Source: Lachnospiraceae bacterium NK4A179
Lineage (GTDB): Bacteria; Bacillota; Clostridia; Lachnospirales; Lachnospiraceae
Direction of reading: 5' to 3'
Assembly (NCBI GenBank): GCA_000421045.1
Contig: ATWC01000009.1
Span: forward strand, 1 to 64,000
Length of the DNA stretch: 64,000 bases
The translations under genes were made by a program, and so were the position numbers. Shown here one piece after another: positions 32,414-49,300 of the stretch (within the stretch, counting starts at the first letter, position 1; every line of letters starts with the position of its first letter). The notes under the pieces were generated by a model. It worked only from the letters and a program-made list of their open reading frames with translations. It made no database searches and had not been told where the DNA came from.

Positions 32414-32484
32414 ATGAACACATTTTTTTCACATTCTTCGCATAGAATACGTGGCATAGAGATTAAAGAAAGGAAGTGTCAGTC

Positions 32485-34521
32485 ATGTACGAAGATAACA
32501 ACGGAAATAATAACGTAAACGGTCCTTCTTACGGGACATATAACAGCAGCTATAGCAATCAGTTCGGCCTGTCTGACAACAGTAATGCGGTAAACGCATC
32601 TCCTGCTTCAGACGGAATGGCTTCTGTGGCTTCCGGGGCAGCAGAAACAGCAGCGGCAGCACCTGCTGCAACTAATACAACTGCCGACAGTAGTGTATCT
32701 ACAGGTTCCGCTTTGGGAAATCCTTCATCCCCGTTTGCATATACATACGGTTCACAGGCAGCAACTGCAGGAAACACATATAGCTCACAGAATACAACTG
32801 CAGGAAGCGCATATGCTTCACAGAGCGCAGTAGCAGGAAGTTCTTACGGTTCTCCGGCTGCTGCAACAGGAAGTTCATTTAGTTCGTATAGTTCACAGAG
32901 GACGTTTTCAGGAAGCTCATATGGTGCACAGAGCGCAGTATCAGGTGGTTCCTATGGTGCTCAGGGTACGTCATCAGGAAACTCATACGGTTCACATGTA
33001 GTCGGATCAGGAAACTCATACGGTTCACATGTAGGCGGATCAGGAAATGCATATGGTTCTCAGAGCACATCTACGGGACCGGTATATTCATATAGTACAC
33101 AAAACAGCCCATATAGCAGTAATTCGTATGCATCCCCTCAGTATACGCAGCCAAACATGGGCTCGAATGGCCAGTCACAGCCGGGGACTAAACCTAAGAA
33201 AAAGAAATCCCCTGTAGGCGTTATCCTTCTTGCTTCTGCGCTTATCGTTCTTTGCTTTTTGATCATTGGAGGAGTTTCAATAGCAAGGTTTATCGGTTCT
33301 CATTCGGATTTCAGCGCAAAGATTGAAACCAATAAGTTTGACAGCGATGATCCTATTTTTGATGATAAGGATGCAGAGGCTGTTCCTGAGGATTTCGATA
33401 TTTCCGATAATGATGATAAGGATGATGATACAGACAGTAAGGATAAGGCTGACGTTTCTTCGGGAGCTGACGAGGCTGATATGGCAGATATCCATTCAGG
33501 CCTTACCACGAAGACAGTTGTATCCGACGTGAGCAGTATGGTTGAAGATGTTATGCCCTCGATGGTCGCCATAACAAACCATATGACGGTTGATTATTAT
33601 TACTACCAGGAACAGGGCGATGCCAGTGGATCAGGTATTATAATCGGCAAGAATGATCATGAGCTTCTAATAGCTACAAATTATCATGTTGTTGCTGACA
33701 ATGACGGACTTGAAGTTAATTTTATAGATGATGCAAAGGTTACTGCAAATGTTAAAGGCGCAGATGAGCAGATGGATCTGGCAGTTGTGGCTGTTAATAT
33801 TTCAGATATTCCGGATGATACTATGGACAGGATAGAGATTGCCACGATGGGCGATTCCGACAACTTAAAGATCGGTGAACCTGCTATCGCTATAGGTAAC
33901 TCACTTGGATACGGTCTTTCAGTTACAACAGGTGTTATAAGTGCAGTAAACAGAGAGGTATATTCGGAGGGTGAGCAAGGTGCAGGGTCTGCTGTAAAGG
34001 GCTTTATTCAGACAGATGCTGCTATCAATCCCGGAAATTCCGGTGGTGCGCTGCTAAATATTAACGGTGAGGTTATCGGGATCAACTCGAATAAGATAGG
34101 AGGAAGCAATGTTGAAGGAATGGGCTATGCTATCCCCATTTCGGCTGCAGAGCCTATTCTCGGTGATCTGATGAGTAAAGTAACTAAAGTTTCTGTTCCG
34201 GAGGATGAAAGGGGATATCTGGGAATATCCGGTGCAACGGTTACCCCTTCCGAGATAGAGTATTACGGACTTCCCGAAGGCGTTTATATAGCAACGGTAA
34301 ACGGCGGATCGCCTGCTGCTGATGTGGGGCTTCAAAAGGGTGATTTTGTTGTAGCTGTAAATGGAGAAAAAGTTGATTCTATGGGAGATCTTCAAAAGGA
34401 GCTCAGTTATTACAGGGCCGGAGACGAGATCGAGATCAGTGTTAAGAGACCTGATGGTGATGATTATACAGAACAGACGTATAAGGTAAAACTTGGCGAT
34501 AAGGGTGTTCTGGACGGCTGA
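32485..34521 (+). CDS. htrA: HtrA/DegP-type serine protease with Ser/Gly/Tyr-rich cytoplasmic tail
   Basis: 678 residues from ATG 32485 (AAGGAAG eight bases upstream; GTG 32476 is in frame). Residues 1-235 are low complexity, rich in Ser, Gly, Tyr, Ala, Gln and Asn with repeated SYGS/SYGAQ units and almost no charge from 80 on. A Lys cluster (KPKKKK) precedes the membrane helix at 243-265, so the tail is inside the cell. Outside follow an Asp-rich linker, the trypsin-like domain with His about 400 (TNYHVV), Asp about 430 (MDLAVV) and Ser about 519 (NPGNSGGAL), and one PDZ domain (about 575-670). It would degrade or refold misfolded exported proteins. Confidence 0.93.
   Translation: MYEDNNGNNNVNGPSYGTYNSSYSNQFGLSDNSNAVNASPASDGMASVASGAAETAAAAPAATNTTADSSVSTGSALGNPSSPFAYTYGSQAATAGNTYSSQNTTAGSAYASQSAVAGSSYGSPAAATGSSFSSYSSQRTFSGSSYGAQSAVSGGSYGAQGTSSGNSYGSHVVGSGNSYGSHVGGSGNAYGSQSTSTGPVYSYSTQNSPYSSNSYASPQYTQPNMGSNGQSQPGTKPKKKKSPVGVILLASALIVLCFLIIGGVSIARFIGSHSDFSAKIETNKFDSDDPIFDDKDAEAVPEDFDISDNDDKDDDTDSKDKADVSSGADEADMADIHSGLTTKTVVSDVSSMVEDVMPSMVAITNHMTVDYYYYQEQGDASGSGIIIGKNDHELLIATNYHVVADNDGLEVNFIDDAKVTANVKGADEQMDLAVVAVNISDIPDDTMDRIEIATMGDSDNLKIGEPAIAIGNSLGYGLSVTTGVISAVNREVYSEGEQGAGSAVKGFIQTDAAINPGNSGGALLNINGEVIGINSNKIGGSNVEGMGYAIPISAAEPILGDLMSKVTKVSVPEDERGYLGISGATVTPSEIEYYGLPEGVYIATVNGGSPAADVGLQKGDFVVAVNGEKVDSMGDLQKELSYYRAGDEIEISVKRPDGDDYTEQTYKVKLGDKGVLDG
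32968..33066 (+). repeat. 33-bp direct repeats in the htrA tail
   Basis: Three consecutive units of GGAAACTCATACGGTTCACA-type sequence, the first two almost identical, encode SGNSYGSHV-x-G repeats. Less regular SSYG units extend the array upstream to about 32760. Confidence 0.75.
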
Positions 34522-34551
34522 AATCATATATAGTCAGAGAATAAATATCTG

Positions 34552-34584
34552 CAGGGACGGCTTCGCATGGCGTGGCCGCCCCTG
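34552..34584 (+). other. hairpin in the leader of the NudC-type gene
   Basis: CAGGGACGGC and GCCGCCCCTG pair with one mismatch around a 13-base loop. No T-run follows, so it is not a standard terminator; it may limit read-through from htrA or stabilise the downstream message. Confidence 0.4.
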
Positions 34585-34606
34585 TGGTCGTATAAGGGGA
34601 ATTATA

Positions 34607-35452
34607 ATGATACAGGATATCGGAGAGGGAAGGCTTGATATTTCATATGGTCTGCAGAAGCCTTCTGACGGAGACAGACTATTTATTTATGGATATAAGG
34701 ACAAGACGGTATATGTAAAGATGCTTAGGGATGACATTCCGGATATACCGTTTTTTCCGTTAAAGGATGATTTGTTAAGAAACAAAGAGTTCAAATTCCT
34801 CTTCAGGATCGCTGGGACGGCCTATTTTACGATAATTGAAGATGGCACGGAATTGATCCCTTATGAGCACAATACGTATAGCTTTCAGAAGCTTTCGGTT
34901 TTCAGAAAATCTGCACAGACAGATCTGAGGTTTGCGGCTTCTACAGGCTGGCAGTTATATAAATGGTATATGGATAACCGTTTTTGCGGACGCTGTGGGG
35001 GGAAGATGAAATATGGTGAGAAGGAGCGCTCTGTAATTTGTAAAGACTGCGGTCTTACCGTCTATCCCAAGATCATGCCTGCCGTGATAATAGGCGTTAC
35101 AAACGGTGATGATATACTTATGACAAGGTATCGGGGCAGGGAATATAAGGGCCATGCTCTTATTGCAGGATTCTGTGAAATAGGAGAGACTGCTGAAGAT
35201 ACCGTAAGACGCGAAGTGATGGAAGAAGCCGGAATCAGGGTAAAGAATATCAGGTATTATAAAAGCCAGCCCTGGGGTTTTGATCAGGATCTGCTGCTTG
35301 GCTTCTACTGCGAAGCTGATGGTGATTGCAGCATAAAAATGGATGACGGAGAGTTATCGGAGGCTGTCTGGGTAAACAGAAAAGATATAACTGAAAAGAA
35401 TGAGAATATGAGTCTTACAAATGAGATGATCGTTCGCTTCAAAGAAGGCTGA
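34607..35452 (+). CDS. nudC: NAD(+) diphosphatase / NAD-cap hydrolase, Nudix (NudC-like)
   Basis: 281 residues from ATG 34607 (AAGGGGA upstream; the frame opens earlier, within htrA's end). A zinc ribbon with Cys at about 127, 130, 145 and 148, the Nudix box GFCEIGETAEDTVRREVMEE near 189, and the SQPWGFDQ motif that defines the NADH-pyrophosphatase subgroup. It hydrolyses NAD(H) to NMN(H) and AMP and, in the E. coli homologue, removes NAD caps from RNA. Confidence 0.93.
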   Translation: MIQDIGEGRLDISYGLQKPSDGDRLFIYGYKDKTVYVKMLRDDIPDIPFFPLKDDLLRNKEFKFLFRIAGTAYFTIIEDGTELIPYEHNTYSFQKLSVFRKSAQTDLRFAASTGWQLYKWYMDNRFCGRCGGKMKYGEKERSVICKDCGLTVYPKIMPAVIIGVTNGDDILMTRYRGREYKGHALIAGFCEIGETAEDTVRREVMEEAGIRVKNIRYYKSQPWGFDQDLLLGFYCEADGDCSIKMDDGELSEAVWVNRKDITEKNENMSLTNEMIVRFKEG

Positions 35453-36099: not shown

Positions 36100-37644
36100 A
36101 TGTCAGATATAAACAATAATGATGAAGAAAAGTACTGTTCCATGTGCGGCAGATCCGAAAAGGATGCCGGACATATGGTTCACATGCCGTTCGGGATGTA
36201 TCTCTGCCCGGATTGTATGGATAAGGTTTCGTCAACCATGGAAGAGCGTATGAAGGATATGCCCGGAATGGACTCCTCAGGCGGGGCATTGGATCTTTCA
36301 AAAATGATGCAGCAAATGGGGATGGCAGTTCCTGCGGGAGATGATCTGTATGCCACAAGTGCTGCCAATGATCTTCAAACAGATCCTTCGGGGAACCCGG
36401 ATGGGGAAGAAGGAACAAATGATAAGGAAAAGAAAGAGGAGAAAAAGAAGGGGCCGAGGATCAGTTTTATGAATCTTGGGGACCTTCCCTTCGGAAATCC
36501 TTTTGGCGGCGGTGCAAAGGTAAAACGTGCCAAGCCGGGAGAGGCTAAGCCTCTTATAGCACTGAAAGATATTCCTGCACCTCATAAGATCAAGGCTATG
36601 CTGGATGAATATGTGGTCGGACAGGAAAAAGCAAAGCGTGTCATGAGTGTGGCTGTATACAATCATTACAAGAGAGTTGCCACAAATATGGCCGGCGAGG
36701 ATATTGAGATAGAGAAATCAAATATGCTCATGCTTGGCCCTACAGGTTCCGGTAAGACATATCTTGTAAGAACGCTTGCAAGGATACTTGATGTGCCTTT
36801 AGCGGTTACGGATGCCACATCTCTTACCGAAGCAGGCTATATCGGAGATGATATTGAGAGCGTAGTAAGCAAGCTTCTTACTGCGGCCGATAACGATGCT
36901 GACAGAGCGGAACAGGGCATCATCTATATCGATGAGATAGACAAGATCGCCAGAAAGAGCGATGTGCATTCAAGAGATGTAAACGGCGAATCTGTACAGC
37001 AGGGAATGTTAAAGCTCCTTGAAGGTGCTGAGATAGAAGTTCCTGTAGGCGCTTCATCCAAAAATGCTATGGTCCCCACAACCAGGATAAACACAAGAAA
37101 CATATTATTTATATGTGGCGGTGCTTTCCCGGGTCTCGAGGAGATCATAAATGAACGTCTCAAGAAGAATTCGGCTATGGGCTTTACAGGTGAGATAAGG
37201 GAAAAGGAAAAGAAGGACAGAAAGATATTCGATAAGGCAGAAACCGAAGATATCAGAAAATTCGGCATGATACCCGAATTCGTTGGTCGTCTTCCCATGA
37301 TGTTTGCGCTCGAAGGACTTGATGAGGATATGCTGGTCCGCATCCTTAAAGAGCCTAAAAATGCAATAGTTAAGCAGTATGAGAAACTGCTTGAGCTTGA
37401 CGGAGTGAAACTTGAATTCACTGATGGTGCACTGCGGGCTATAGCTGCAAAAGCCATGACCAAAGAAACAGGAGCCAGAGCACTCAGAGCAGTACTTGAT
37501 GAATATATGACCGATATCATGTTTGAGATCCCTAAGGATGATAATATCGGTAAGGTAACGATCACAGAAGAATATATAGAGAAAAAAGGCGGCCCTCTTA
37601 TCGAGAACCGCACTGAAGAAATACCGAAATTAACAGGAGCCTGA
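36100..37644 (+). CDS. ClpX-like AAA+ unfoldase with zinc finger and long insertion
   Basis: 514 residues against about 420 for normal ClpX. The N-terminal zinc-binding domain has Cys 13, 16, 36 and 39. A Lys/Glu/Gly-rich insert (about 50-150) separates it from the AAA+ module: Walker A GPTGSGKT near 213, pore loop EAGYIGDD (GYVG in ClpX), Walker B IIYIDEIDK near 274, arginine finger PEFVGRLP, sensor-2 GARALR. The RKH pore loop of ClpX is missing and the ClpP-contacting IGF loop reads MGF. It may unfold proteins alone or with ClpP; no clpP is nearby. Could be the only clpX of the genome or a specialised paralogue. Confidence 0.88.
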   Translation: MSDINNNDEEKYCSMCGRSEKDAGHMVHMPFGMYLCPDCMDKVSSTMEERMKDMPGMDSSGGALDLSKMMQQMGMAVPAGDDLYATSAANDLQTDPSGNPDGEEGTNDKEKKEEKKKGPRISFMNLGDLPFGNPFGGGAKVKRAKPGEAKPLIALKDIPAPHKIKAMLDEYVVGQEKAKRVMSVAVYNHYKRVATNMAGEDIEIEKSNMLMLGPTGSGKTYLVRTLARILDVPLAVTDATSLTEAGYIGDDIESVVSKLLTAADNDADRAEQGIIYIDEIDKIARKSDVHSRDVNGESVQQGMLKLLEGAEIEVPVGASSKNAMVPTTRINTRNILFICGGAFPGLEEIINERLKKNSAMGFTGEIREKEKKDRKIFDKAETEDIRKFGMIPEFVGRLPMMFALEGLDEDMLVRILKEPKNAIVKQYEKLLELDGVKLEFTDGALRAIAAKAMTKETGARALRAVLDEYMTDIMFEIPKDDNIGKVTITEEYIEKKGGPLIENRTEEIPKLTGA

Positions 37645-37652
37645 TCTTCTGT

Positions 37653-38588
37653 TTAGGCTGTGATCACCGTTCCGAATCTGCCTTTTGCCGCATCCTTGGC
37701 ATGGGAAAGGGAGGTGATCACAACGGTTCCTTCCGGAACCTCCTTAAGGTATTCTACGGCTGCCCTGATCTTAGGCAGCATATCTGTTTTTCCGAATTCA
37801 CCGGCCTCCATGAGCTTTTCAGCCTCGGAGGCTGTTATTTTTTCGATCGCTTTCTGATCATCTTTTCCAAAAGATGTGTAAGCATGATCTACTGATGTGA
37901 GGATTATGAGCATTTCTGCTTTCAGATCCGCAGCAAGACGTCCGGCTATGGCATCCTTTTCGATAACGGCAGAAGCACCTTTGAATACGTGGTTCTGTTC
38001 TATTACGGGGATACCGCCGCCGCCGCAGGCAATGACGTTCATGCCCTGCTCCGATAAAGCGCGGATAGCATCGAGCTCGACTATCCTTATAGGCTCGGGA
38101 GCTGCGATGATACGTCTGAATCCTTTGCCGGGTTCTTCTTTAACATAATTGCCTTTTTTGATCTCGATCTGTGCATCTTCAGCTGACATGTAACGGCCGA
38201 TGAGCTTCTCGGGTTCGTAAAATGCTTCATCGTAAGGATCGACAGTCACCTGTGTGAGAAGTGTCACAACGGGAGTGGAATCACCTCTGCCAAGCAGTTC
38301 CGAATGAAGAGAATTCTGAAGGTCATAGCCGATATATCCTTCGCTCATAGCGGAGCATACACACATGGGAGCGGGAGTGTAATCGATATAGACACGTCTT
38401 AACTCTGTCATTGCTTTGTGGATCATGCTTACCTGAGGGCCGTTTGAATGAGTGATCGTAAGCTGCCTGCCATCATCTGCTATATCAGCAAGTGCCTTGG
38501 CAGTGATCTTTACTGCATCCATCTGTTCAAGAGTGGTGAGACCTAAAGCTTCATGTCCGAGTGAAACAACAGTTTTTTTCTTATTCAT
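37653..38588 (-). CDS. arcC: carbamate kinase (variant N-terminal motif)
   Basis: 311 residues from ATG 38588, which has GGAG nine bases upstream; ATG 38597 is in frame but too close to it. Amino-acid-kinase fold: THSNGPQV, APMCVCSAMSEGYIGYDLQ, GKGFRRIIAAPEP, ACGGGGIPV and VIEKD are all typical of carbamate kinase, which makes ATP from carbamoyl phosphate in arginine or allantoin breakdown. The usual ALGGNAL at the N-terminus reads SLGHEALG. No arginine deiminase or carbamoyltransferase gene is adjacent. The gene faces the ClpX-like gene with eight bases between stops. Confidence 0.88.
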   Translation of the reverse strand: MNKKKTVVSLGHEALGLTTLEQMDAVKITAKALADIADDGRQLTITHSNGPQVSMIHKAMTELRRVYIDYTPAPMCVCSAMSEGYIGYDLQNSLHSELLGRGDSTPVVTLLTQVTVDPYDEAFYEPEKLIGRYMSAEDAQIEIKKGNYVKEEPGKGFRRIIAAPEPIRIVELDAIRALSEQGMNVIACGGGGIPVIEQNHVFKGASAVIEKDAIAGRLAADLKAEMLIILTSVDHAYTSFGKDDQKAIEKITASEAEKLMEAGEFGKTDMLPKIRAAVEYLKEVPEGTVVITSLSHAKDAAKGRFGTVITA

Positions 38589-38671
38589 TATCTTCATCTC
38601 CGTATAAGGATTTTATTCTGATCAACACAGCAAGTATATCAGATTTAGGGGGAGAAAAAAATAATTTTCTA

Positions 38672-38700
38672 TGGACAACAGATCGCCCGAGTGATATATT
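38672..38700 (+). promoter_or_regulatory. promoter of the InlB-repeat membrane protein gene
   Basis: TGGACA (38672-38677), 17 bases, TATATT (38695-38700). Confidence 0.55.
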
Positions 38701-38706
38701 TTAGCG

Positions 38707-38786
38707 CACACACATCTGTAGTCGGAAATGCCGTTCGGCAGCCTCCGGAAAAGACGGAAAACTACCGTCTGTAAGGAGGAAGATTC
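38707..38786 (+). promoter_or_regulatory. structured 5' leader, candidate cis-regulatory RNA
   Basis: GTAGT (about 38719) can pair with ACTAC (about 38760), enclosing a TGCCG-TT-CGGCA hairpin; alternatively AGACGG pairs with CCGTCT just before the ribosome site GGAGGA. Two exclusive foldings next to the ribosome site suggest regulation. It does not match any riboswitch class I can recall. Confidence 0.35.
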
Positions 38787-41249
38787 ATGAAAAATATTAG
38801 AAGAACACTATTATGCGGCTTTACAGTGCTGCTCATTTTTGCGTCGATTATTACAAACACGGTCAGTGTTGTGGCAAAAGAGAAAGATGTATCGGGCAAC
38901 AATGCAGATCAAAGCCCGGAAGGGACAGATCCGGTGCAGTCACCGGATGTTTATGACATAACGATAAGGCATGAACATGAACGTAACAGATGTTACAGGA
39001 TGTTATGGATACCCTGTGGAGGCCAGTGGACAAATTTTACAAACGAAGAAGGAAAGCATGTCTACAGCTGTACCAATCAGTTTTCAAAAAGAATAGTGAA
39101 TGGTCATCCGTTAACTGATGCCCATTTTAATAAGCCATATTTTTATGGAGAGATGGATCTGAAGACAGAGTTTCATGACGGTTCGTATGTAGAGGATCTG
39201 ATCTGTAATGTAGATGTTCTGGGAACTATAAGGATAGAGCGGCACATGGATGACGGTCATCTAAGGCTCTTAGCAAGTGTTACGGATGACAGCAGATACA
39301 TTGAAAAATATAAGCTTGAATGGGCGGAGAACGACAGTCAGCTCTTTATGAACTGGAGCACAAACCTGTTTACGGATATAAGAGGAACGCATGAACTTCA
39401 TGCTTCATGGTACGATCCGGTCACCAGAGAATGGTTTTATGACACCTTTGAATATACTGACTTTTCTCTTCCGCTAACGGTCTCGCTTCGTTCAGAAGGA
39501 AGTGAGTTATCAACGCTTTCGGTTCCATATGGTGAGTTGCCGGAGCATGTCGAAGTGCCTGTAAGGAAAGGCTATGACTTCTGTGGATACGAAAAGGACG
39601 GTGTGTATTGGATAGACAAAGACGGAAAGCCTACGGCTGCATTTGATGCCAAAATGCCGGAATCGGCGATATCGCTTGATGCTGTATGGAGTGCCAGAAA
39701 ATATAACGTCTGCTACGGCCCTGATGGCAATAAAGACGGGGTTCCCGACAGAACTTTTGATACAGAATTTGATAAGGCGTACAGTAGCGTGAATGTATCA
39801 GGTGAGATCAAAACCGGTTATATTTTTGACGGTTACAAAAGCGATGAGGAGAATGTCTTTGATAAGGACGGAGCACCGACCGGAAACGGCATATGGAGAT
39901 GGGATCCTAAAAAAGATTCACGTGGAAGAGTGATACTTTCAGAGGCCTTTAGTCCCAAGGTTTATGAGATAAAGTGTGGCGGGAAGTCTTATAAGGTTAC
40001 CTATGATGCGCCTTATGAAGCGGTGGCGCCTGCGGCTAAGAAGACCGGTCATGTATTTAAAGGATATACCGTAAGCGGAGATCTTGCTTATGATCAAAAC
40101 GGAAAAGCTGTGTCCAAGACCTGGAAATGGGATATTGAAAACGGCTTGGCTCTTGGTGAAGAGTACGAACCGAAGACTTTTAAGATAAAGTGCGGTGACA
40201 AAACATACAGTGTGACCTATGGTGAGAAATACGGAAACGTAAGTGCATGCGAGGTTGATAAGGATTCCATATTCATGGGTTATAAATATGGCGACGAGTC
40301 AGTCTTTGATGAAAATGGAAAACCAGTGGAAACATTCTGGAAATGGGACGGTGATGAAGGCGACGTAATAGAACTTAAGGCAGAGATAAAGAAGAAGCCT
40401 GAACCTACGGCAACACCGACACCTGAACCCACCACTGAAACGGCAACCGGAACTTCAGATGAGAGTGTTTCAAAAAATCTTTCAAAGGGTAAAACAAACG
40501 GTACGGGAAACGGTTCCGGTATGTCAGATGGGCAAAAATCAGATTCGGTATCATCGGGCTCGGTGTCTTCGGATTCTGTATCTTCAGACAGCGTATCTTC
40601 CGATGCGGTTTCTGAAGATAAGGCAATGAAGAAGAAAAACAAAGCAGTGGCATCAGGCGGCTCCGGAAATGACGGCTCTGATGCTCCCTCTGATACAGTA
40701 TTGAAAAAAGCAAGAACACAGTTATCGAATAATGGCGAAAAGACAATAACTGATGCAAAAGATGAAGCCGCTGTATCTGAGGTTGTTAAGGAGGATGAAG
40801 GGAACGAGTCCGTGCCTCAGTCTTCTGCAAAAACAGTACAGGCAGCTTCGCGGAATAAAGAATGGAAAAATACCGGGGAAAAGCATTTTATAATGCCGCC
40901 AGAAGTGGTAAAAACTGCTGCTGCGGTAGGTGGCGTATCGGCAGCTGCAGCCGGCGGAGTATATGTGCTGCAGGCCGGGTTTATATATCTTTTTGCCATG
41001 GCGGATATCATAAATGTGAGTCCTGCCGGAAAAAGGAAGGAAATAGGAAAGGTGACGGTCGGAAGCAAAAGGGGAAAACTGTCCGTGGAAGTGGGCAGAA
41101 GTTTAATAAACAAGTGCGATGCGGGACATATCGAGATATTGTTCTCAAAACCTTTTGTATGGGCATACAGAAACAGACCATTAAAAGTGACTGTCGGAGG
41201 AAAGGCTTTTATGACGGCTCTTAGCGATAAGGTGGAAGCAAGGATATGA
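38787..41249 (+). CDS. secreted InlB-repeat protein with C-terminal membrane helix and cytoplasmic domain
   Basis: 820 residues. Signal peptide (1-30), an unassigned domain (about 55-240), InlB-type / Listeria-Bacteroides beta repeats (about 240-560: KGYDFCGYEKDG, TGYIFDGYK, TGHVFKGYT), a PTPEPT linker and Ser/Val/Asp repeats (about 585-615), a hydrophobic membrane segment (about 708-742) and a ~75-residue C-terminal domain with EIGKVTVGSKRGKLSVEVG. With the signal peptide outside, the last domain should be in the cytoplasm. It lies between ClpX-like genes; direct contact with one of the AAA+ proteins is an inference. AAGGAGGA precedes the ATG. Confidence 0.75.
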   Translation: MKNIRRTLLCGFTVLLIFASIITNTVSVVAKEKDVSGNNADQSPEGTDPVQSPDVYDITIRHEHERNRCYRMLWIPCGGQWTNFTNEEGKHVYSCTNQFSKRIVNGHPLTDAHFNKPYFYGEMDLKTEFHDGSYVEDLICNVDVLGTIRIERHMDDGHLRLLASVTDDSRYIEKYKLEWAENDSQLFMNWSTNLFTDIRGTHELHASWYDPVTREWFYDTFEYTDFSLPLTVSLRSEGSELSTLSVPYGELPEHVEVPVRKGYDFCGYEKDGVYWIDKDGKPTAAFDAKMPESAISLDAVWSARKYNVCYGPDGNKDGVPDRTFDTEFDKAYSSVNVSGEIKTGYIFDGYKSDEENVFDKDGAPTGNGIWRWDPKKDSRGRVILSEAFSPKVYEIKCGGKSYKVTYDAPYEAVAPAAKKTGHVFKGYTVSGDLAYDQNGKAVSKTWKWDIENGLALGEEYEPKTFKIKCGDKTYSVTYGEKYGNVSACEVDKDSIFMGYKYGDESVFDENGKPVETFWKWDGDEGDVIELKAEIKKKPEPTATPTPEPTTETATGTSDESVSKNLSKGKTNGTGNGSGMSDGQKSDSVSSGSVSSDSVSSDSVSSDAVSEDKAMKKKNKAVASGGSGNDGSDAPSDTVLKKARTQLSNNGEKTITDAKDEAAVSEVVKEDEGNESVPQSSAKTVQAASRNKEWKNTGEKHFIMPPEVVKTAAAVGGVSAAAAGGVYVLQAGFIYLFAMADIINVSPAGKRKEIGKVTVGSKRGKLSVEVGRSLINKCDAGHIEILFSKPFVWAYRNRPLKVTVGGKAFMTALSDKVEARI

Positions 41250-41275
41250 TGTTCTGAAAGCTCTGTTTTTAGGCC

Positions 41276-41310
41276 TGCACCGCCCTTTGAATCCTTGCAA
41301 GGGCGGTGCA
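41276..41310. other. perfect 12-bp inverted repeat (hairpin) without T-run
   Basis: TGCACCGCCCTT, 11-base loop, AAGGGCGGTGCA. Very stable but followed by AAAGATAG, so it is not a normal intrinsic terminator. It ends 20 bases before the next ATG and may be a processing or stability element or a partial terminator. Confidence 0.6.
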
Positions 41311-41330
41311 AAGATAGTAAAATAAAGGCT

Positions 41331-42830
41331 ATGATCAATATATTCAGAGCCACGGATACTGTCGGTGAAAAACGCGGCAGATATGCCAAAATGATTAGCC
41401 CGTCAGCCTATATCACTGAAAGGATGATGGCTGTAAGCGAGGGCACTCCTGATGACTGGTCCGACGAGATCAGCTATATGGAGATGCTTTATTACCGTGT
41501 GCTTGAGGATCCGGGGATAGATGAAGCAGACAGAGGGCTTGATGACATGCTTGATAAGCTCGATGAAGATCTGCAGTATTCGATGGATATATTCGGTGAA
41601 AGGGCTGATAATGTCCTTACATTTCTTGAATCCGATACCATGCGTCATGCACTCAACCGCAGTTCCAATGAGGCAGAATGCAGGATACTCGGACACATCA
41701 GATATATCAGAAATGAACGTTTCGGAAAAAAACAGGAAAGCAATAAAGGAAAGGGCAGGACTCCCGCTCAGATAAAAGAATATCTTGATGCATATATCAT
41801 CGGTCAGGATGATGCAAAGATCGCTCTTTCAAATGCTGTATATGGTCATATGAAAAGGATCCGTCACCCGGATGTGAATTTTGCACCGGATGTGGTCCTT
41901 ATGATCGGTCCTTCCGGCTGCGGTAAGACTGAGCTTATGCGGAGGATAGCAAATATCAGCGATGAGCCTATGATATGTACGGATGTGTCGAATCTTGGCG
42001 CCGGTCAATATAGGGGGCGCCATAAGGAAGACATACTTATGGATCTCTATATGGCAGCAGGCAAGGATCTTCGCAAAGCTGAAAGAGGGATCATCTTTAT
42101 GGATGAATTCGATAAGCTTCTGCTTCCCGCGGTCTCTGAAAGAGGCGTAAACGTACATGATGATGTGCAGTCGCAGCTCCTTACAATGCTTGAGGGAAGC
42201 GATGTGGAACTCAAGACGGATGGACAGTCACTCGTGATAAATACATCAAGGATACTTTTTGTACTTGCCGGAGCATTCCAGGGAATAGATGAATTTATCA
42301 GGAAAGACAGGATGAAGCGTGAGAATTCGTCTGCCGGAATGGGATTTCTTTCAACACTGAAACAGGACGTAAACACGGAATTTATCCGTGAAAACATAAA
42401 TCATGACGTGCTCATGGAGTACGGAATGAAGACGGAACTTGCGGGAAGGATAAGCAGCATAGCGGTGCTTGAGAAACTCGGAAGGGAAGAGCTGTTAAGG
42501 ATACTGACAGAAGCTGATGACGGAATGCCGCAGTGCTATGCAAAGGAAGTGGAGCTTGGAAGCCGCGCAAAACTTATTTTCAGAGAAGACGCGCTGGAGG
42601 CCATAGCGGATGAGGCTCTTGAATCCGGAGTGGGTGCAAGAGCACTTAGAAGCATTCTTTCAAGAGTGATGCTGCCTGTGCTTTACAAGGCGCCCGCCAT
42701 GAAGGGACTCACGCGGGTTGTGATATCCCGTGAATGTGTTACTGACGGTGTAGATGCTGAATATGTTTTAGGAGAGAATGATACTCCTTTAAGCGAGCTG
42801 ATAAGAGAAAGCAGAGAAGATGAACGATAA
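41331..42830 (+). CDS. ClpX-like AAA+ protein lacking the zinc finger
   Basis: 499 residues from ATG 41331 (a TTG at 41295 lies in the hairpin). The first ~140 residues are helical and unlike ClpX. AAA+ module: KEYLDAYIIGQDDAK, Walker A GPSGCGKT near 192, Walker B IIFMDEFDK near 254, arginine finger TELAGRI, sensor-2 GARALR. The GYVG pore loop is replaced by GAGQYRGRHKED, as in the next gene, which suggests altered substrate handling. MGF stands at the ClpP-contact position. It overlaps the third AAA+ gene by 11 bases. Unknown function; probably forms a hexamer, alone or mixed with its neighbour. Confidence 0.8.
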   Translation: MINIFRATDTVGEKRGRYAKMISPSAYITERMMAVSEGTPDDWSDEISYMEMLYYRVLEDPGIDEADRGLDDMLDKLDEDLQYSMDIFGERADNVLTFLESDTMRHALNRSSNEAECRILGHIRYIRNERFGKKQESNKGKGRTPAQIKEYLDAYIIGQDDAKIALSNAVYGHMKRIRHPDVNFAPDVVLMIGPSGCGKTELMRRIANISDEPMICTDVSNLGAGQYRGRHKEDILMDLYMAAGKDLRKAERGIIFMDEFDKLLLPAVSERGVNVHDDVQSQLLTMLEGSDVELKTDGQSLVINTSRILFVLAGAFQGIDEFIRKDRMKRENSSAGMGFLSTLKQDVNTEFIRENINHDVLMEYGMKTELAGRISSIAVLEKLGREELLRILTEADDGMPQCYAKEVELGSRAKLIFREDALEAIADEALESGVGARALRSILSRVMLPVLYKAPAMKGLTRVVISRECVTDGVDAEYVLGENDTPLSELIRESREDER

Positions 42831-44373
42831 GGAACTGTTTGAATGTCAGGCGCCGGACGGAGTGTATGATCACTTCACGGCGGAACTGAAAAGGTATATG
42901 GACGAAGGCGGCAGGATAGGAAATATAAGCGTTGCCGCTCTTGTTCTTACGCTTATCGTTTATTATCTTCTGAAAAGAAGACCGGTTGCAGACAGGCAGA
43001 CTGAGAGTATCTTGAAGCTTTTGGGCGCAGCTTATAAGGATAAGGGATACAGAGCTGCATTCTGGACGATAATGAGGGAATCATCTGAAGCGATGCCGGA
43101 GGATGAGTTCTTTGCTGCAGCTCCCGGGCTTGAGCGCAGAGTAACTAACGATGATATAGATGAGCTATTTGCTTTTGTGGAATATGAGATAATCAGATAC
43201 AGAGAAGTCGGTGAAAGAGAGCGACTTTTGGGTCTGCTTGATGTGTGCCGTGTAAGATACAGGTCTGCTGATATCTTTTCTCATCTGGGACGCTTGAAAA
43301 AAGAAAAGAAGGATGTAGTACCAAGGCATGTGGCTGCGGCCGTTAACTTTTTGAAGCAGTATAATCCCGAAAGTATAAAGGCATATCTGGACCGTTATGT
43401 TGTGGGACAGGATGACAGTAAGCGCATTCTTTCTGCTGCGGTCTACAATCATTACCTGAGGCTTGCAAACCCGGACGAGCATCTTCTCAAATCAAATGTA
43501 TTACTGATCGGCCCTACGGGCTGTGGAAAGACAGAACTTATAAGAAGACTCACATCGCTTGTAAATGTGCCGGTTACCGTGACAGACTTCAGCGGACTGG
43601 TCGCTACACCGTGGAAAGGTCGAAACAAAGAAGAGGCACTCACTTCTCTTTATCTGAAGGCCGGGAAGGATGTAGAGCTTGCCGAATGCGGGATAGTTTT
43701 CTGCGATGAGTTTGACAAGATCATTCCGTCGAGAAGATATTCAAGAGGCGGCGATATAAATGATGAGCTGCAGGGTCAGCTGCTTGGCATGTTTGAGGGA
43801 ACTGTGCTTGATGTGCCGGTAAAAGAAGGCGGCGGATCAGAAATGATACAGATGAATACCGAAAATATACTTTTTGTCTGCGCCGGGGCTTTTGAAGGGC
43901 TTGATAAACTTGTCAAAAAGGATATCGACAAAGCCGGGATAGGATTTGGAAGCGAAGTTAAGGATAGCGATGAATTTGAACTGAATTCCGAAGTCCTTAA
44001 GACAAAGCATCTGGTTGATTATGGTATGAAACCCGAACTTGCAGGCAGACTCAATGCTGTAAGCGTACTCAAGAAGCTTGACAGGGATGCACTTCACAGG
44101 GTTCTCACGGAGGCTGAGGACAGTATCCTTGTAAGATATATGAATGAATTCAGGGAAGACGATGAAGTGGAACTTGAATTTACTGAAGATGCACTGGATG
44201 TGATCATAGACAGGGTGATGGATATGAACATTGGTGCAAGAGGTCTCAATTCTGTTATACACGAGATGCTGAAGACCCCGATGTTTGAGACCCCTTCAAA
44301 GGAAGGCGTGAAAGGCGTGCGCATCACAGGGGATGCAGCACGCGGTATAAGCGGACCTGAATACATATTTTGA
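42820..44373 (+). CDS. membrane-anchored ClpX-like AAA+ protein
   Basis: 517 residues. A single membrane helix at about 33-51 (ISVAALVLTLIVYYLL) anchors the protein; a helical domain follows to ~190, then the ClpX-like module: AYLDRYVVGQDDSK, Walker A GPTGCGKT near 231, the pore position reads TPWKGRNKEE, Walker B IVFCDEFDK near 290, arginine finger PELAGRL, sensor-2 GARGL. IGF near 373 keeps the ClpP-docking tripeptide exactly. Anchored ClpX-like ATPases are not a familiar class; FtsH is the usual membrane AAA+ protease but has a peptidase domain, absent here. Start overlaps the preceding gene by 11 bases. Confidence 0.82.
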   Translation: MNDKELFECQAPDGVYDHFTAELKRYMDEGGRIGNISVAALVLTLIVYYLLKRRPVADRQTESILKLLGAAYKDKGYRAAFWTIMRESSEAMPEDEFFAAAPGLERRVTNDDIDELFAFVEYEIIRYREVGERERLLGLLDVCRVRYRSADIFSHLGRLKKEKKDVVPRHVAAAVNFLKQYNPESIKAYLDRYVVGQDDSKRILSAAVYNHYLRLANPDEHLLKSNVLLIGPTGCGKTELIRRLTSLVNVPVTVTDFSGLVATPWKGRNKEEALTSLYLKAGKDVELAECGIVFCDEFDKIIPSRRYSRGGDINDELQGQLLGMFEGTVLDVPVKEGGGSEMIQMNTENILFVCAGAFEGLDKLVKKDIDKAGIGFGSEVKDSDEFELNSEVLKTKHLVDYGMKPELAGRLNAVSVLKKLDRDALHRVLTEAEDSILVRYMNEFREDDEVELEFTEDALDVIIDRVMDMNIGARGLNSVIHEMLKTPMFETPSKEGVKGVRITGDAARGISGPEYIF

Positions 44374-44384
44374 GGGTAGTGAGA

Positions 44385-45911
44385 ATGAAGGGTAAATTCG
44401 GAAAACTGCAGTTAACCATATTACTCACAACAGTGCTGCCTATGCTCGTGATGGGCATAGTCATTACGATTTTTGCGGTGAACAATTACAGAGATATATT
44501 TGAGGCTGAGGTAAACCGTTCGTTGTCATCTGCGGCCGGTTCGGCTGCAACCATGTTCGACGCCCTCTATCCCGGTGATTATAAGCTTGTCGAGAGTGGA
44601 AAATATGTATCGCTCTTTAAAGGTGATAAGGAACTTACAGACGATCATGCCATTGTGGACAGCTTAAAAGAAAGTACGGGAATGGATGTGACGCTTTTCT
44701 ATATGGATGCGAGGATACTCACGACCATTCTTGATAAAGATGGCAACAGGACTGTCGGAAGCGGAGTTAACGGTGCTATCTTCAAAGAGATGCAGAATAA
44801 GATGAGCGCTATTTACTATACGGTGGATATAAACGGCGAAACAAACTATGTCTGCTATATACCTCTGAAGAATTCAGATGGAACGCTCGTTGGAATGATA
44901 GGAACAGGCTGCAGCGCCGAAAATGTTATAAGTAATGTGAACCGCGCGGCATGGCCCATCATAATAGTGACGGTCATTGCGACTCTGTTAGCATCTCTTA
45001 TAAGTATCAGATATACAACCTATGTAGCATTATCCATAGGAGATATAAAGAAGTTCCTTCAGACAGTAATTAACGGAAGTCTGGATGCTGTTATGCGTGA
45101 TAGAGCGCTTGACAGAAATGATGAGCTGGGCGATACGGCTGATGCTGCGGTAAAAATGAGGGATGCGCTGAGAGTGATGGCTGAAAAAGATCCCCTTACC
45201 ATGCTCTATAACAGACGTTACGGAATGAGCCGTATGAAACAGGTACAGAATTCGGCCGGAAAGACAGGCGAGAAGTTTGCGATAGCTATAGGTGATATAG
45301 ATTTCTTCAAGAAGGTTAATGATACCTATGGCCATGATGCCGGGGATGAAGTGCTTAGATTTGTGGCGCTTGAACTGAGGCGCCTGATGCTTGGATGCGG
45401 CTTCGCTGTAAGGTGGGGCGGTGAGGAATTCCTTCTTGTGTTTGATAAATTGGATGAGGATGCTGCAGCTGATAAGATACTGTCACTGCTTGACCTGGTA
45501 AGAGGCAGAGTGATAAGCTATGGCTCTCAGGATATAAGCATAACGATGACGTTCGGCCTTCGTGAGGGCAGCAATGACATGGATATCAATGATATGGTCA
45601 AAGAGGCTGACGGAGCCCTTTATTACGGTAAACAGCACGGCAGAAATCAGCTGGTACGCTGTGAGGACCTGGATGCTTCCGAACTTATCACAGAGGATGA
45701 GGCAGTACTTGCAGCCCAGACTCCCGATATTTCAGAAGAGGATGACCTCGAGAAGCTTGCAGCCTCACTTATCAGGGCGGCAGAGAAGGGGAGCGAAGCT
45801 CCCAAGACCGTTGTTACCGATACTGCTTCCTCTGATTCGGCAGCAGAGACCCTTATGCAGAAACTGGTGCTCAGTGCTGCCAGACATGCAGAAGAAGAGG
45901 GTGAAGACTGA
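44385..45911 (+). CDS. membrane diguanylate cyclase with extracellular sensor domain
   Basis: 508 residues from ATG 44385, 11 bases after the AAA+ gene. Membrane helix 1 (about 8-30), a Cache-like sensor (31-178), helix 2 (about 184-204), a short linker and a GGDEF domain with NRRYG, DIDFFKKVNDTYGHDAGD and the active-site GGEEF near 345. The RxxD inhibitory site, expected five residues before GGEEF, is absent, so product inhibition is not expected. A ~60-residue acidic tail ends the protein. It makes c-di-GMP from GTP. Confidence 0.92.
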   Translation: MKGKFGKLQLTILLTTVLPMLVMGIVITIFAVNNYRDIFEAEVNRSLSSAAGSAATMFDALYPGDYKLVESGKYVSLFKGDKELTDDHAIVDSLKESTGMDVTLFYMDARILTTILDKDGNRTVGSGVNGAIFKEMQNKMSAIYYTVDINGETNYVCYIPLKNSDGTLVGMIGTGCSAENVISNVNRAAWPIIIVTVIATLLASLISIRYTTYVALSIGDIKKFLQTVINGSLDAVMRDRALDRNDELGDTADAAVKMRDALRVMAEKDPLTMLYNRRYGMSRMKQVQNSAGKTGEKFAIAIGDIDFFKKVNDTYGHDAGDEVLRFVALELRRLMLGCGFAVRWGGEEFLLVFDKLDEDAAADKILSLLDLVRGRVISYGSQDISITMTFGLREGSNDMDINDMVKEADGALYYGKQHGRNQLVRCEDLDASELITEDEAVLAAQTPDISEEDDLEKLAASLIRAAEKGSEAPKTVVTDTASSDSAAETLMQKLVLSAARHAEEEGED

Positions 45912-46354: not shown

Positions 46355-49300
46355 TTAGTTCTCTTCAGACTTAGCACTGAAGCTCTCTGCAAATTTGTTG
46401 TAAGCATTCTTGATCATTTCTGCTATTGAGATGTCTGCAGCTACGATCTTGAACTTAACTGTCTTGGTTCCGCCGTATTCTCCGATACCACGGATGACTG
46501 CCTTGCCTGAACCCTTGTTTACGTTCTTTGAGCAGGATTCAACAATGTAGTCTGTGCCGGGTTTGAGGACTGCACCGTTAGAAGCTTTTACTGTGAAGTC
46601 ACTTGCTTCAGGTGTGATAGCCTCGCCGGTGTAGGTTTTCTTGTTGGCAGCGATGAACTTTGCGGACTTGATCTTGTGAGCCTTGTCAGTGATGCTGAAG
46701 CTGCCTGTAGCAATTCCGGCATACATGCCCTTAAGAGTCACTGTAACCTTTACTTGGGTTCCTACATTTACGGTAGCCTTCTTGAATGCCTCGGATCCTT
46801 CGTATTTGGTTGAACCGATGGTGTAGAGGATATTTGATTCATCGTAATCAACGCCTGCTTTAAGAAGCTTGCCGTTGCTGCCATCATAAAGTGTTACCTT
46901 GCCTACAGGTGTCTTGCCGACTGCAAAGATCGAATCTGTTGTTGATACGATAACTGTCTTAGAGCCTGCGTTGCTGCGTCTTCTGATGATGCTGAAAGGA
47001 ATACGCTGCTCGCCCTTGTAGTCGCCGATACCTGTGATGATGATCTGAGGAAGGTTTGCACCGGTTATTGAGGTGTCAGTAGGTACTGTCACTTCATTGT
47101 TAGTATAGCTTACTCTGTAATCAACGCCCTCTGTGAGCTGTACGCCCTTGAAGGAAACGCTTACTGCAGGTGTAGCGCCGCCCTTTGAATAAGGAGCCTT
47201 AAAGTACTTTCCGTTTGCATCATAGCTTCCGCTTTCTGTGATATTTACGGAAGCTTCCTTCAGGTCATAAACGCTGCTGCGAACGATCTTGAAGGTTGCC
47301 TTCTTTGAACCGCAGTAGGTTGTGTTTCCTTCAGCGGGAAGGATGTATACGGTTGCTTTGCCGACCTTTGTTGCATTTACAAATACTGCACGTACTCCAC
47401 CGCTTGTGAAGCCGTTTGCTTTGTTGAGTACTACGTTTGCTGCGCCTGTTACACTTACGTTAATGGTTTCATTTAAGCTTGCATCTGTGCCTGTGTAGTT
47501 TGCGGGACCAACTTTAACCTTTGTTTTTGAAAGGCTTACGCCGCTTCCGACAGTTACAAGGCAGGTAGTTGTGCCTGTGCAGCTTCCCCTACCTTCAAGA
47601 GTTACAAGGAAGGTTCCGTTAGTTGCAAATGTTGCTTTCTTACGCTTTGCGTCGATAATGGCATTTCCTGATGCTTCTTTGATAATGAAGTCTTTTCCTG
47701 CTTTAAGCTTTGCACCGTTCATCATAACTACAGGTGTGAATTTAGCTTTGCCGGTTGCAAATGCTGCATCGGGTACTTCTGCATTTGCGATGTTAAGCGG
47801 AGCGATGGTGAAGGGTACGATCTTTGTTCCCTTGTACTGGCCCTTGCCCTTAATGAGGATGTAAGGAGCCTTTAACATCTTCGCAGTTTCAGGAGTTACG
47901 TCTGTTGCATCAAATACTTTCTTGTTGTTCTTGTAGCTGAGTGTGTAATCTTTCTTATATCTTAACTTCTTGCCGTTGTAGTATACATCGGGAACGGGCT
48001 TAACTGTCTTGCCTGTGTATGATGCCTTGTATACCTTGTTTCCTGAACCGTCATGGAAATCAGCCCAAAGACCTGCATGAACAGGTTTGAAGAGAGCTGT
48101 GATGGTGAGGGAACCGCCTTCAACGATGGCAGGTATCTCAAACTCAACGGTATTATCGTTTCTGCTGCTGTCATATTTTATTACGACAGATTGTCCGTTT
48201 TCAGATTCGATCTTTACGCCTGCGAATACATATCCTTCATTGGGAGTAGCAGTAGCAGTAACCTTGTCACCTACATGCAGATTATCTGCATTGCTTAAAT
48301 TAAGACCACCGTTTTTGGACTTGGCAGGGCTTAATGCAAGCGGTGTAAGGTTTAATGATACGCTTACGATAACATCATCTGCAGGCATTCTGAAGGTTGT
48401 CTTTTCTTCAACTGTAGGATCAGATACGCGTACTTCGTTTCCAGCAGAATCCCTTACATCCCAGTGGTCAAATTCATAACCGGGAAGGTGTGTGCAGGTT
48501 ACTGTTACGTTGCCGCCTTCCACTTCTTCAGTCTTATCGGCAGTGATAGTAGCACCGGAAACTGTTGCTACAGCGATCCCATATGAAAGACCGCCTACTT
48601 CTACATTAAAGCTCATCCTGAGACCATCTGCTGTCAAAACATCTATCTTGGCCGTGCCTCTGCTCAGAGCTTTGATGGTAACGTTGCTGTGATCGTCTCC
48701 GTCGGACTCGGAATCATTGTAGGTAAATTCAGCAACGCCGGGGTTTGAGCAGCTCCACCTTGTATATTTATAATAGGTAGCATTTGCAGGTGTAAGAGCT
48801 GCAGTGAATACGATCGATGTATCAGGTTTCATCTTTACCGTGTCATTGTCACTTATTGTAACAGTTTCACCGGTTTTGGGATTCTTATATGTTACTTTGA
48901 CATCGGTTGCAATTATTGCATTTGATTCTTCCTGTCCATTCCAGTTGTAATCCCAGTGTGCATCCATGAGAGCATCATTGTCGCCTTTAAACTTGTCGGT
49001 ACCCTCGAGAGCCTTTCTTTCAGTATAAGTGCCCTGGAAATAAACGAATAAAAGGTTTTTACAATTCCTGAATGCGCCTTTTTCGATGGTCTTTACCTTT
49101 CCGAGGTGGATCTTTGTAAGACCTTCACAGCCGTTGAACACACCTTCGTGGACTGTTTCAAGACTCTCAGGGAAGTAAATATCATTTAAGGATACACAGC
49201 CTGAGAATGCGTTGCTTCCTACACCTTTGAAGTTGCTCTGGGTAAGAGGGAAACTTACTTTGTTTAATGCCGTACATCCGCTAAAAGCATAGTCTCCGAT

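Follow-up and report, generated by a model that had tools for sequence, protein, structure and literature searches.

Among described systems, those closest to the genes considered here are canonical ClpX, delimited by the curated families NF003745 and TIGR00382, and the supernumerary ClpX copies of Myxococcus xanthus. The available part of a report on E. coli ClpX names I268, F270 and V274 as contacts with ClpP and describes ClpP binding as impaired already by the exchange I268L (PMC7112951). The available part of a study on M. xanthus calls multiple ClpX rare in bacteria and describes three of them in this organism, of which ClpX3 lacks both the N-terminal domain and the RKH loop (PMC11423568). 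The stretch analysed here, 64,000 nucleotides of Lachnospiraceae bacterium NK4A179 (the window), carries three ClpX-type genes, termed A, B and C, of which the overlapping pair B/C is kept in nearly the whole genus in a rebuilt form that retains the ClpP-docking loop and replaces the substrate-reading parts. Extra ClpX copies away from clpP1 are also found in M. xanthus; however, ClpX2 and ClpX3 appear in the available part of that study as isolated single genes, whereas B and C form a conserved pair with new N-terminal domains and a constant neighbour. With what we judge an even chance of being right, we propose that B and C constitute a paired, probably hetero-oligomeric ClpX-like unfoldase which docks onto the shared ClpP and handles new clients, including products of its own operon. 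Among the papers listed by a literature search of open-licence papers, none was found to describe the B/C pair. The genes referred to in the following are:

36100–37644, plus strand: A, second ClpX with zinc finger (NF003745 549.8 bits, TIGR00382 490.8 bits, motif table)
38787–41249, plus strand: S, surface protein with signal peptide, C-terminal hydrophobic helices and cytoplasmic tail
41331–42830 (longest start 41295), plus strand: B, ClpX-derived AAA+ protein (NF003745 252.5 bits, cut-off 359)
42820–44373, plus strand: C, ClpX-derived AAA+ protein (NF003745 300.0 bits, cut-off 359)
44385–45911, plus strand: diguanylate cyclase of the Cache-GGDEF type, with an sCache_3 sensor between two hydrophobic helices, a GGDEF domain and an acidic C-terminal tail

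The window is located on contig 9 of a genome of 3.22 Mb in 73 contigs. The start of C overlaps the end of B by 11 bases, and the ATG of the cyclase at 44385 follows 11 bases past C. A genome search revealed four ClpX-type genes, namely A, B, C and a canonical clpX on another contig (C1:144997–146205, 631.5 bits). The gap between its match and that of clpP (C1:146260–146799) is 54 bases. The latter is the one clear clpP of the genome, a second clpP-family match reaching 19.8 bits, or 20.6 with in-frame neighbours, at a cut-off of 20.2. The layout agrees with a first-pass annotation made from the letters of the window alone, which had described three AAA+ open reading frames (ORFs) on one strand with ClpX-type Walker A/B, arginine finger and GAR motifs, a surface protein with a cytoplasmic tail between A and B, a diguanylate cyclase 11 bases after C and the lack of a nearby clpP; the additional canonical clpX that it had advised looking for is present and adjoins clpP.

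All three reading frames are intact and have ClpX as their best NCBIfam family, and their best solved relatives are likewise ClpX. A exceeds both curated cut-offs (NF003745, 549.8 against 359; TIGR00382, 490.8 against 370.75); B (252.5 and 228.2) and C (300.0 and 281.2) remain below both, and with 121.8 and 122.6 bits, respectively, they are also far from the HslU family TIGR00390 (cut-off 362.45). Motif counts given here and below refer to 30 A, 32 B and 32 C sequences, the window and two second copies included. In these rows Walker A, the DE Walker B, the arginine finger and the GAR sensor 2 are kept with rare changes; by sequence, the ATPase motifs of B and C are intact and ClpX-like. In contrast to canonical ClpX, B and C lack the zinc-binding N-terminal domain (PF06689 was unmatched in a Pfam scan of both) and the RKH loop, carry unrelated helical N-domains and have a basic pore-1 flank. 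All 12 canonical ClpX used for comparison have the RKH loop, which in the listed loops of A, B and C has been exchanged or cut short. Pore-1 of B reads [Y/F]RGRHK in 30 of 32 rows, the two exceptions being second copies (window QYRGRHK, within 41997–42032), and that of C reads W[K/R]G in all 32 (window ATPWKGRNKEE at 43603–43635). The aromatic residue is thereby kept, the V after it is changed to K or R, the flank is basic and the acidic neighbours are replaced; the first-pass annotation, according to which both proteins had lost zinc finger and pore loop, was right about the former, but the latter is altered rather than simply lost.

The ClpP-docking tripeptide of B is I/MGF in 29 of 32 rows (MGF at 42339–42347 in the window; the others are two FGF, one of them in a second copy, and one IGY). 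That of C is I/M/LGF, also in 29 of 32, with both second copies and the genome G016 as exceptions. In the window, C has the loop IGFGSEV (IGF at 43939–43947) and keeps all three ClpP contacts, and a hydrophobic residue usually occupies the place of E. coli V274 in the aligned docking loops. The exact IGF earlier singled out in C is accordingly real, but it is no peculiarity of C, as I/MGF is found in 30 of 30 A and 29 of 32 B rows; of six canonical ClpX from other families, four likewise have M at the I position. These comparisons support a putative docking of B and C to ClpP by the conserved IGF-type loop.

Sixty relatives were searched with C and their neighbourhoods were then examined. Among the 35 genomes of this Lachnospiraceae genus, C was detected in 31, each time with B next to it. 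The cyclase follows directly downstream of C in 30 of the 31 (one ORF intervenes in G004), and the C and cyclase ORFs overlap or are at most 62 bases apart in 26 of the 29 gaps listed. Because of this genus-wide conservation the locus is not a chance assembly, and the sequences show B and C to be genuine genes. C was not found in G013 and G014 (94% and 99% complete) nor in G023 and G033, where a completeness of 77% and 67% makes the absence unsure. S adjoins the cyclase in G014, with no B or C between them. In a tree of A, G014 clusters with two carriers of B/C (supports 84 and 95), while G013 falls within a group whose other members carry B/C (support 87); because both nest among carriers, a loss of B/C is the simpler reading. 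S, judged by its tail, occurs in 28 of the 35 genomes and directly precedes B in 20 of 32 B rows. The suggested co-occurrence of S with B and C holds for the latter two without exception. The S tail was not found in four of the 31 B/C genomes (27 have it) and is present in one of the four others, and S as an obligate partner of B/C was consequently rejected. In G022 (L062), C is split into two ORFs and A is broken too, as pseudogenes or by assembly errors.

Outside the genus, no convincing match to either N-domain was obtained in the genomes searched. The profile of the C domain matched one of 200 family genomes, a sure match that is the window's own genome, and 10 of 391 class genomes, of which nine are weak and the sure one is again the own genome; for the B domain, the only match among 392 genomes of the order and among 398 of the phylum was likewise the window's own. 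A pattern scan of 84,980 species with the C alignment, which may overlook relatives that lack its two peptide patterns, retrieved 30 loci; 29 of their titles name Lachnospiraceae and one Bacillota, and at least 10 name rumen or omasum. The carriers of B/C are a group of gut and rumen bacteria.

In a 68-row tree of A, B, C and canonical ClpX, the four groups are supported by 98 (A), 98 (B), 78 (C) and 99 (canonical ClpX of the genus). B and C are united in a single clade (support 100) that is set apart from all other ClpX and joins A (support 98). Since the tool warns of long branches, two features alone seem safe, namely that B groups with C and that both are distant from canonical ClpX. The distance matrices of B and C correlate at 0.97 over 22 species (A–B 0.92, A–C 0.93; values without a significance test) and still at 0.80 after regression on A, which fits a co-evolution of B and C.

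A has a different distribution. It keeps the C4 zinc finger (PF06689) and the GYIG pore loop, as the first-pass annotation had stated, pore-1 being GYIGDD in 30 of 30 rows, and its docking tripeptide is I/MGF throughout (MGF at 37177–37185 in the window). The main difference from canonical ClpX is the RKH loop, replaced by GASSKNAMVPTT (37054–37082 in the window). When A-type ClpX is recognised by SSKNAMVPTT or close variants in the place of RKH, an exact pattern whose counts are lower bounds, it occurs in at least 10 of 397 family genomes and at least 8 of 334 genera. Because A was found without B/C in seven other genera (L121–L127; no B, C, S or cyclase match in the stretches around A), and A without B/C also occurs in G013 and G014 of the host genus, A is to be regarded as a separate, wider second ClpX, seemingly a ClpX subfamily of its own, and B/C as the genus-specific novelty. 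An HtrA-like gene directly precedes A in 26 of 30 A rows and in two of the seven other genera; in the window a NUDIX gene intervenes. The earlier idea of one shared system is therefore to be narrowed: it holds for the B/C pair and the cyclase (30 of 31), not for A, which occurs separately, nor for S, which is not obligate.

The N-terminal regions of B (41331–41768) and C (42820–43353) are, as previously supposed, new domains in place of the lost zinc domain. That of B is predicted to be helical by AF2 (predicted local distance difference test score (pLDDT) 83.0, predicted template modelling score (pTM) 0.77) and that of C, modelled from residues 1–178 with 30 sequences, to be all-helical (mean pLDDT 88.3, pTM 0.78). 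In hhalign, the comparison of the two domains with each other gave a probability of 12% and 4%. A Foldseek search of the PDB found nothing at E ≤ 0.001 with either domain, VIA-align of the C domain gave at best a Z of 4.6, inside the tool's stated noise, and the C profile against PDB sequences gave at best a topoisomerase stretch (E 0.015). The hydrophobic segment of C in the window (IGNISVAALVLTLIVYYLL; the same place in orthologues, e.g. TVSDYLRILVHYI) had been read as a membrane helix tethering a ClpX paralogue, a claim which the comparison does not support. The best 19-residue Kyte–Doolittle hydropathy (KD) is 2.14 in the window and 0.35–1.81 in 29 orthologues, only L106 (1.81) exceeding 1.6, and D, R or H stand at this place in most of them. 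AF2 models the segment as helix 36–53 of the all-helical domain (block pLDDT 95–98), presumably packed inside it. Because the helix place is charged or polar in most orthologues and belongs to an all-helical domain, C is probably not membrane-anchored; a membrane contact peculiar to the window protein is conceivable. B and C thereby also differ from FtsH and the m-AAA proteases: a conserved N-terminal transmembrane helix is not found in B or C (for C, 28 of 29 orthologues below KD 1.6), and a fused zinc protease domain was unmatched in the Pfam scan of B/C.

A short part of the C domain (42937–43035) shows a weak resemblance to VirD4/TraG coupling proteins (T4SS-DNA_transf, PF02534; L143–L149, L151), in the stretch from their Walker A to their Walker B; these proteins differ from C, which has a ClpX-type motor. 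The nine weak profile matches (E 1.4e-4 to 8.2e-4) include eight that look like such coupling proteins, two confirmed by Pfam and six aligned; the remaining match belongs to a protein that contains two AAA modules. In hhalign the C domain scored 88.9% probability against six of these coupling proteins and 71.8% against 19 mixed ones (score 43.5; 15.6 reversed, 22.7 for the best of eight shuffles), both sets being biased by selection. Against 13 coupling proteins chosen by Pfam family only, the match was weak (13.7%, score 31.5; controls 20.3 reversed and 22.0 for the best of 60 column shuffles), and the B domain gave no hhalign match to coupling proteins. We regard a common ancestry of the C domain and the coupling-protein helical domain as possible, with a chance well short of even. 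The latter domain helps to recognise substrates, and by analogy such a kinship would suit a client-binding role of C.

On the basis of these data, the proposed B/C unfoldase might work as follows. Its subunits, encoded by overlapping genes that stand with S and the cyclase in an operon-like row, would assemble as a mixed ring, for which the paired m-AAA paralogues are a precedent, and this ring would dock the cell's ClpP by its IGF-type loops. As the RKH loop and the zinc domain are gone, the pore is basic and the N-domains are new, B and C are expected to unfold substrates not taken by canonical ClpX, with the genus-specific helical N-domains choosing the clients. The likeliest clients would be products of the same operon, above all the membrane diguanylate cyclase, whose tail is acidic, and the pair would thus tune cyclic di-GMP (c-di-GMP) and surface or exopolysaccharide output. 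ClpXP is linked to c-di-GMP in Caulobacter. Assigning the cyclase as a client is a guess; nevertheless, it appears as the best candidate among the neighbours, its acidic tails facing a basic pore entrance of B/C. The cyclase has two hydrophobic helices in 33 of 33 rows, and the 25 tails measured comprise 56–167 residues with a net charge of −9 to −40 (tail region 45654–45911 in the window). A short hydrophobic motif of the LMxxLxxNA type near the tail end is matched in 25 of 30 rows by a loose pattern that was written after the tails were seen. S has C-terminal hydrophobic helices at about 40905–41021 and ends in a cytoplasmic tail (about 41022–41246), roughly 75 residues long and conserved. 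No Pfam match over cut-off was found in the two S proteins scanned, a Listeria–Bacteroides repeat match being weak and below cut-off. If B/C use the cell's ClpP, the pair would represent a natural re-targeting of an AAA+ protease by a second motor front end, and with candidate clients adjacent it offers a clean system for the roles of the RKH loop, pore-1 charge and N-domain. A more elaborate version, in which a two-subunit ring recruits by a coupling-protein-related N-domain and delivers the cyclase and surface-linked proteins to ClpP as a dedicated c-di-GMP control, seems improbable to us.

Several observations weigh against the proposed ClpP-linked unfoldase with operon clients. G009 (L049) and G010 (L051) contain extra paired B–C copies on long, fast-evolving branches without S or cyclase beside them; their second C copies lack the IGF tripeptide, which is also missing from the first-copy C of G016. 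As I268L already damages ClpP binding in E. coli ClpX, the M and L variants of the tripeptide may, by analogy, dock more weakly. G014 keeps the cyclase tail and its motif though B and C are lost, so that the tail is not explained by B/C alone, and its interpretation as a B/C-specific degron is weakened. Finally, B and C share a long branch (2.75 changes per column), whose attachment to A may be an artefact of branch length, and the grouping of all C sequences reaches a support of only 78%. As a separate observation, a phage-integrase-family gene is located just upstream of the extra B–C pair of G010.

The strongest competitor, which we consider somewhat less probable than the proposed reading and which overlaps with it, assumes that B/C are indeed a ClpP-linked pair, but with clients unrelated to S and the cyclase, the neighbourhood being an inherited chance. 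The four B/C genomes in which the S tail was not found, the different neighbours of the second B–C copies and the retention of the cyclase tail after loss of B/C all point this way; the adjacency of C and cyclase in 30 of 31 genomes of a diverse genus, mostly with overlapping or closely spaced ORFs, speaks against it. Alternatively, B/C might be a remodelling machine, unfoldase or chaperone, that works on the membrane proteins of the operon without ClpP. This would agree with the remote clpP, the missing zinc domain and RKH loop, the rebuilt pore-1 flank and the first-copy C of G016; yet the loop by which E. coli ClpX docks ClpP (according to the available part of PMC7112951) is kept in 29 of 32 rows each of B and C while its surroundings vary, and no change of F376 occurs in 27 rows of C, which makes ClpP independence unlikely.

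Less weight is given to the idea that B/C enter rings formed by canonical ClpX or A as regulatory subunits and alter the specificity of these rings. Such mixing would be favoured by the common core and docking loop of all four proteins and by the presence of A within the same retrieved stretch as C in 22 genomes, but the pairing is between B and C and does not include A, which occurs without them in other genera as well as in G013 and G014, and the B/C core is far diverged from canonical ClpX, so that we regard this explanation as distinctly improbable. An anchored C which extracts membrane or surface proteins for ClpP, as the first-pass annotation had envisaged, might be inferred from the hydrophobic helix of the window protein (KD 2.14 at residues 33–51, followed by KRR) and from the value of the single orthologue L106. 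The charged residues at this position in most orthologues, nearly all of which fall below KD 1.6, and the AF2 model with one helix of an all-helical domain leave it very unlikely. B/C as a defence system was rejected, as the PADLOC matches to the candidate defence protein DolB are partial AAA+ matches only: no full-length match was obtained, B aligning over 131 residues around Walker A/B (8.1e-14, positions 118–241 of 375) and C similarly (5.6e-07, positions 118–243). A phage origin was rejected as well; the C N-domain was unmatched in 50,697 phage records, a weak viral-contig relative shares 24% identity in the core only, and the PHROG matches of B/C are weaker than those to ClpX models.

The remaining genes around the locus are:

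32476–34521, plus strand: serine protease of the HtrA/DegP type, with a single membrane helix and a PDZ domain (Pfam scan)
34493–35452, plus strand: NUDIX protein, between the HtrA-like gene and A in the window
37653–38597, minus strand: carbamate kinase-like gene, which some genomes of the genus have between A and S and which is probably a bystander

A simple scan for signals gave a promoter-like site upstream of S (38672–38700), such sites being no commoner than in shuffles (13 against 13.8), and terminator-like sites that are commoner than in shuffles (17 against 6.5), none of them on the plus strand between S and B; the scan speaks neither for nor against an operon. Upstream of the locus, glycosyltransferase-like genes were recognised by reading, which suggests an exopolysaccharide setting. 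A TwoAYGGAY RNA motif (Rfam RF01731, 66.1 bits) is found at 520–677 on the minus strand. A protein of 1868 residues, by reading secreted and built of leucine-rich-type repeats, is encoded at 46355–51961 on the minus strand and faces the operon-like row, with a tRNA-Leu between them.

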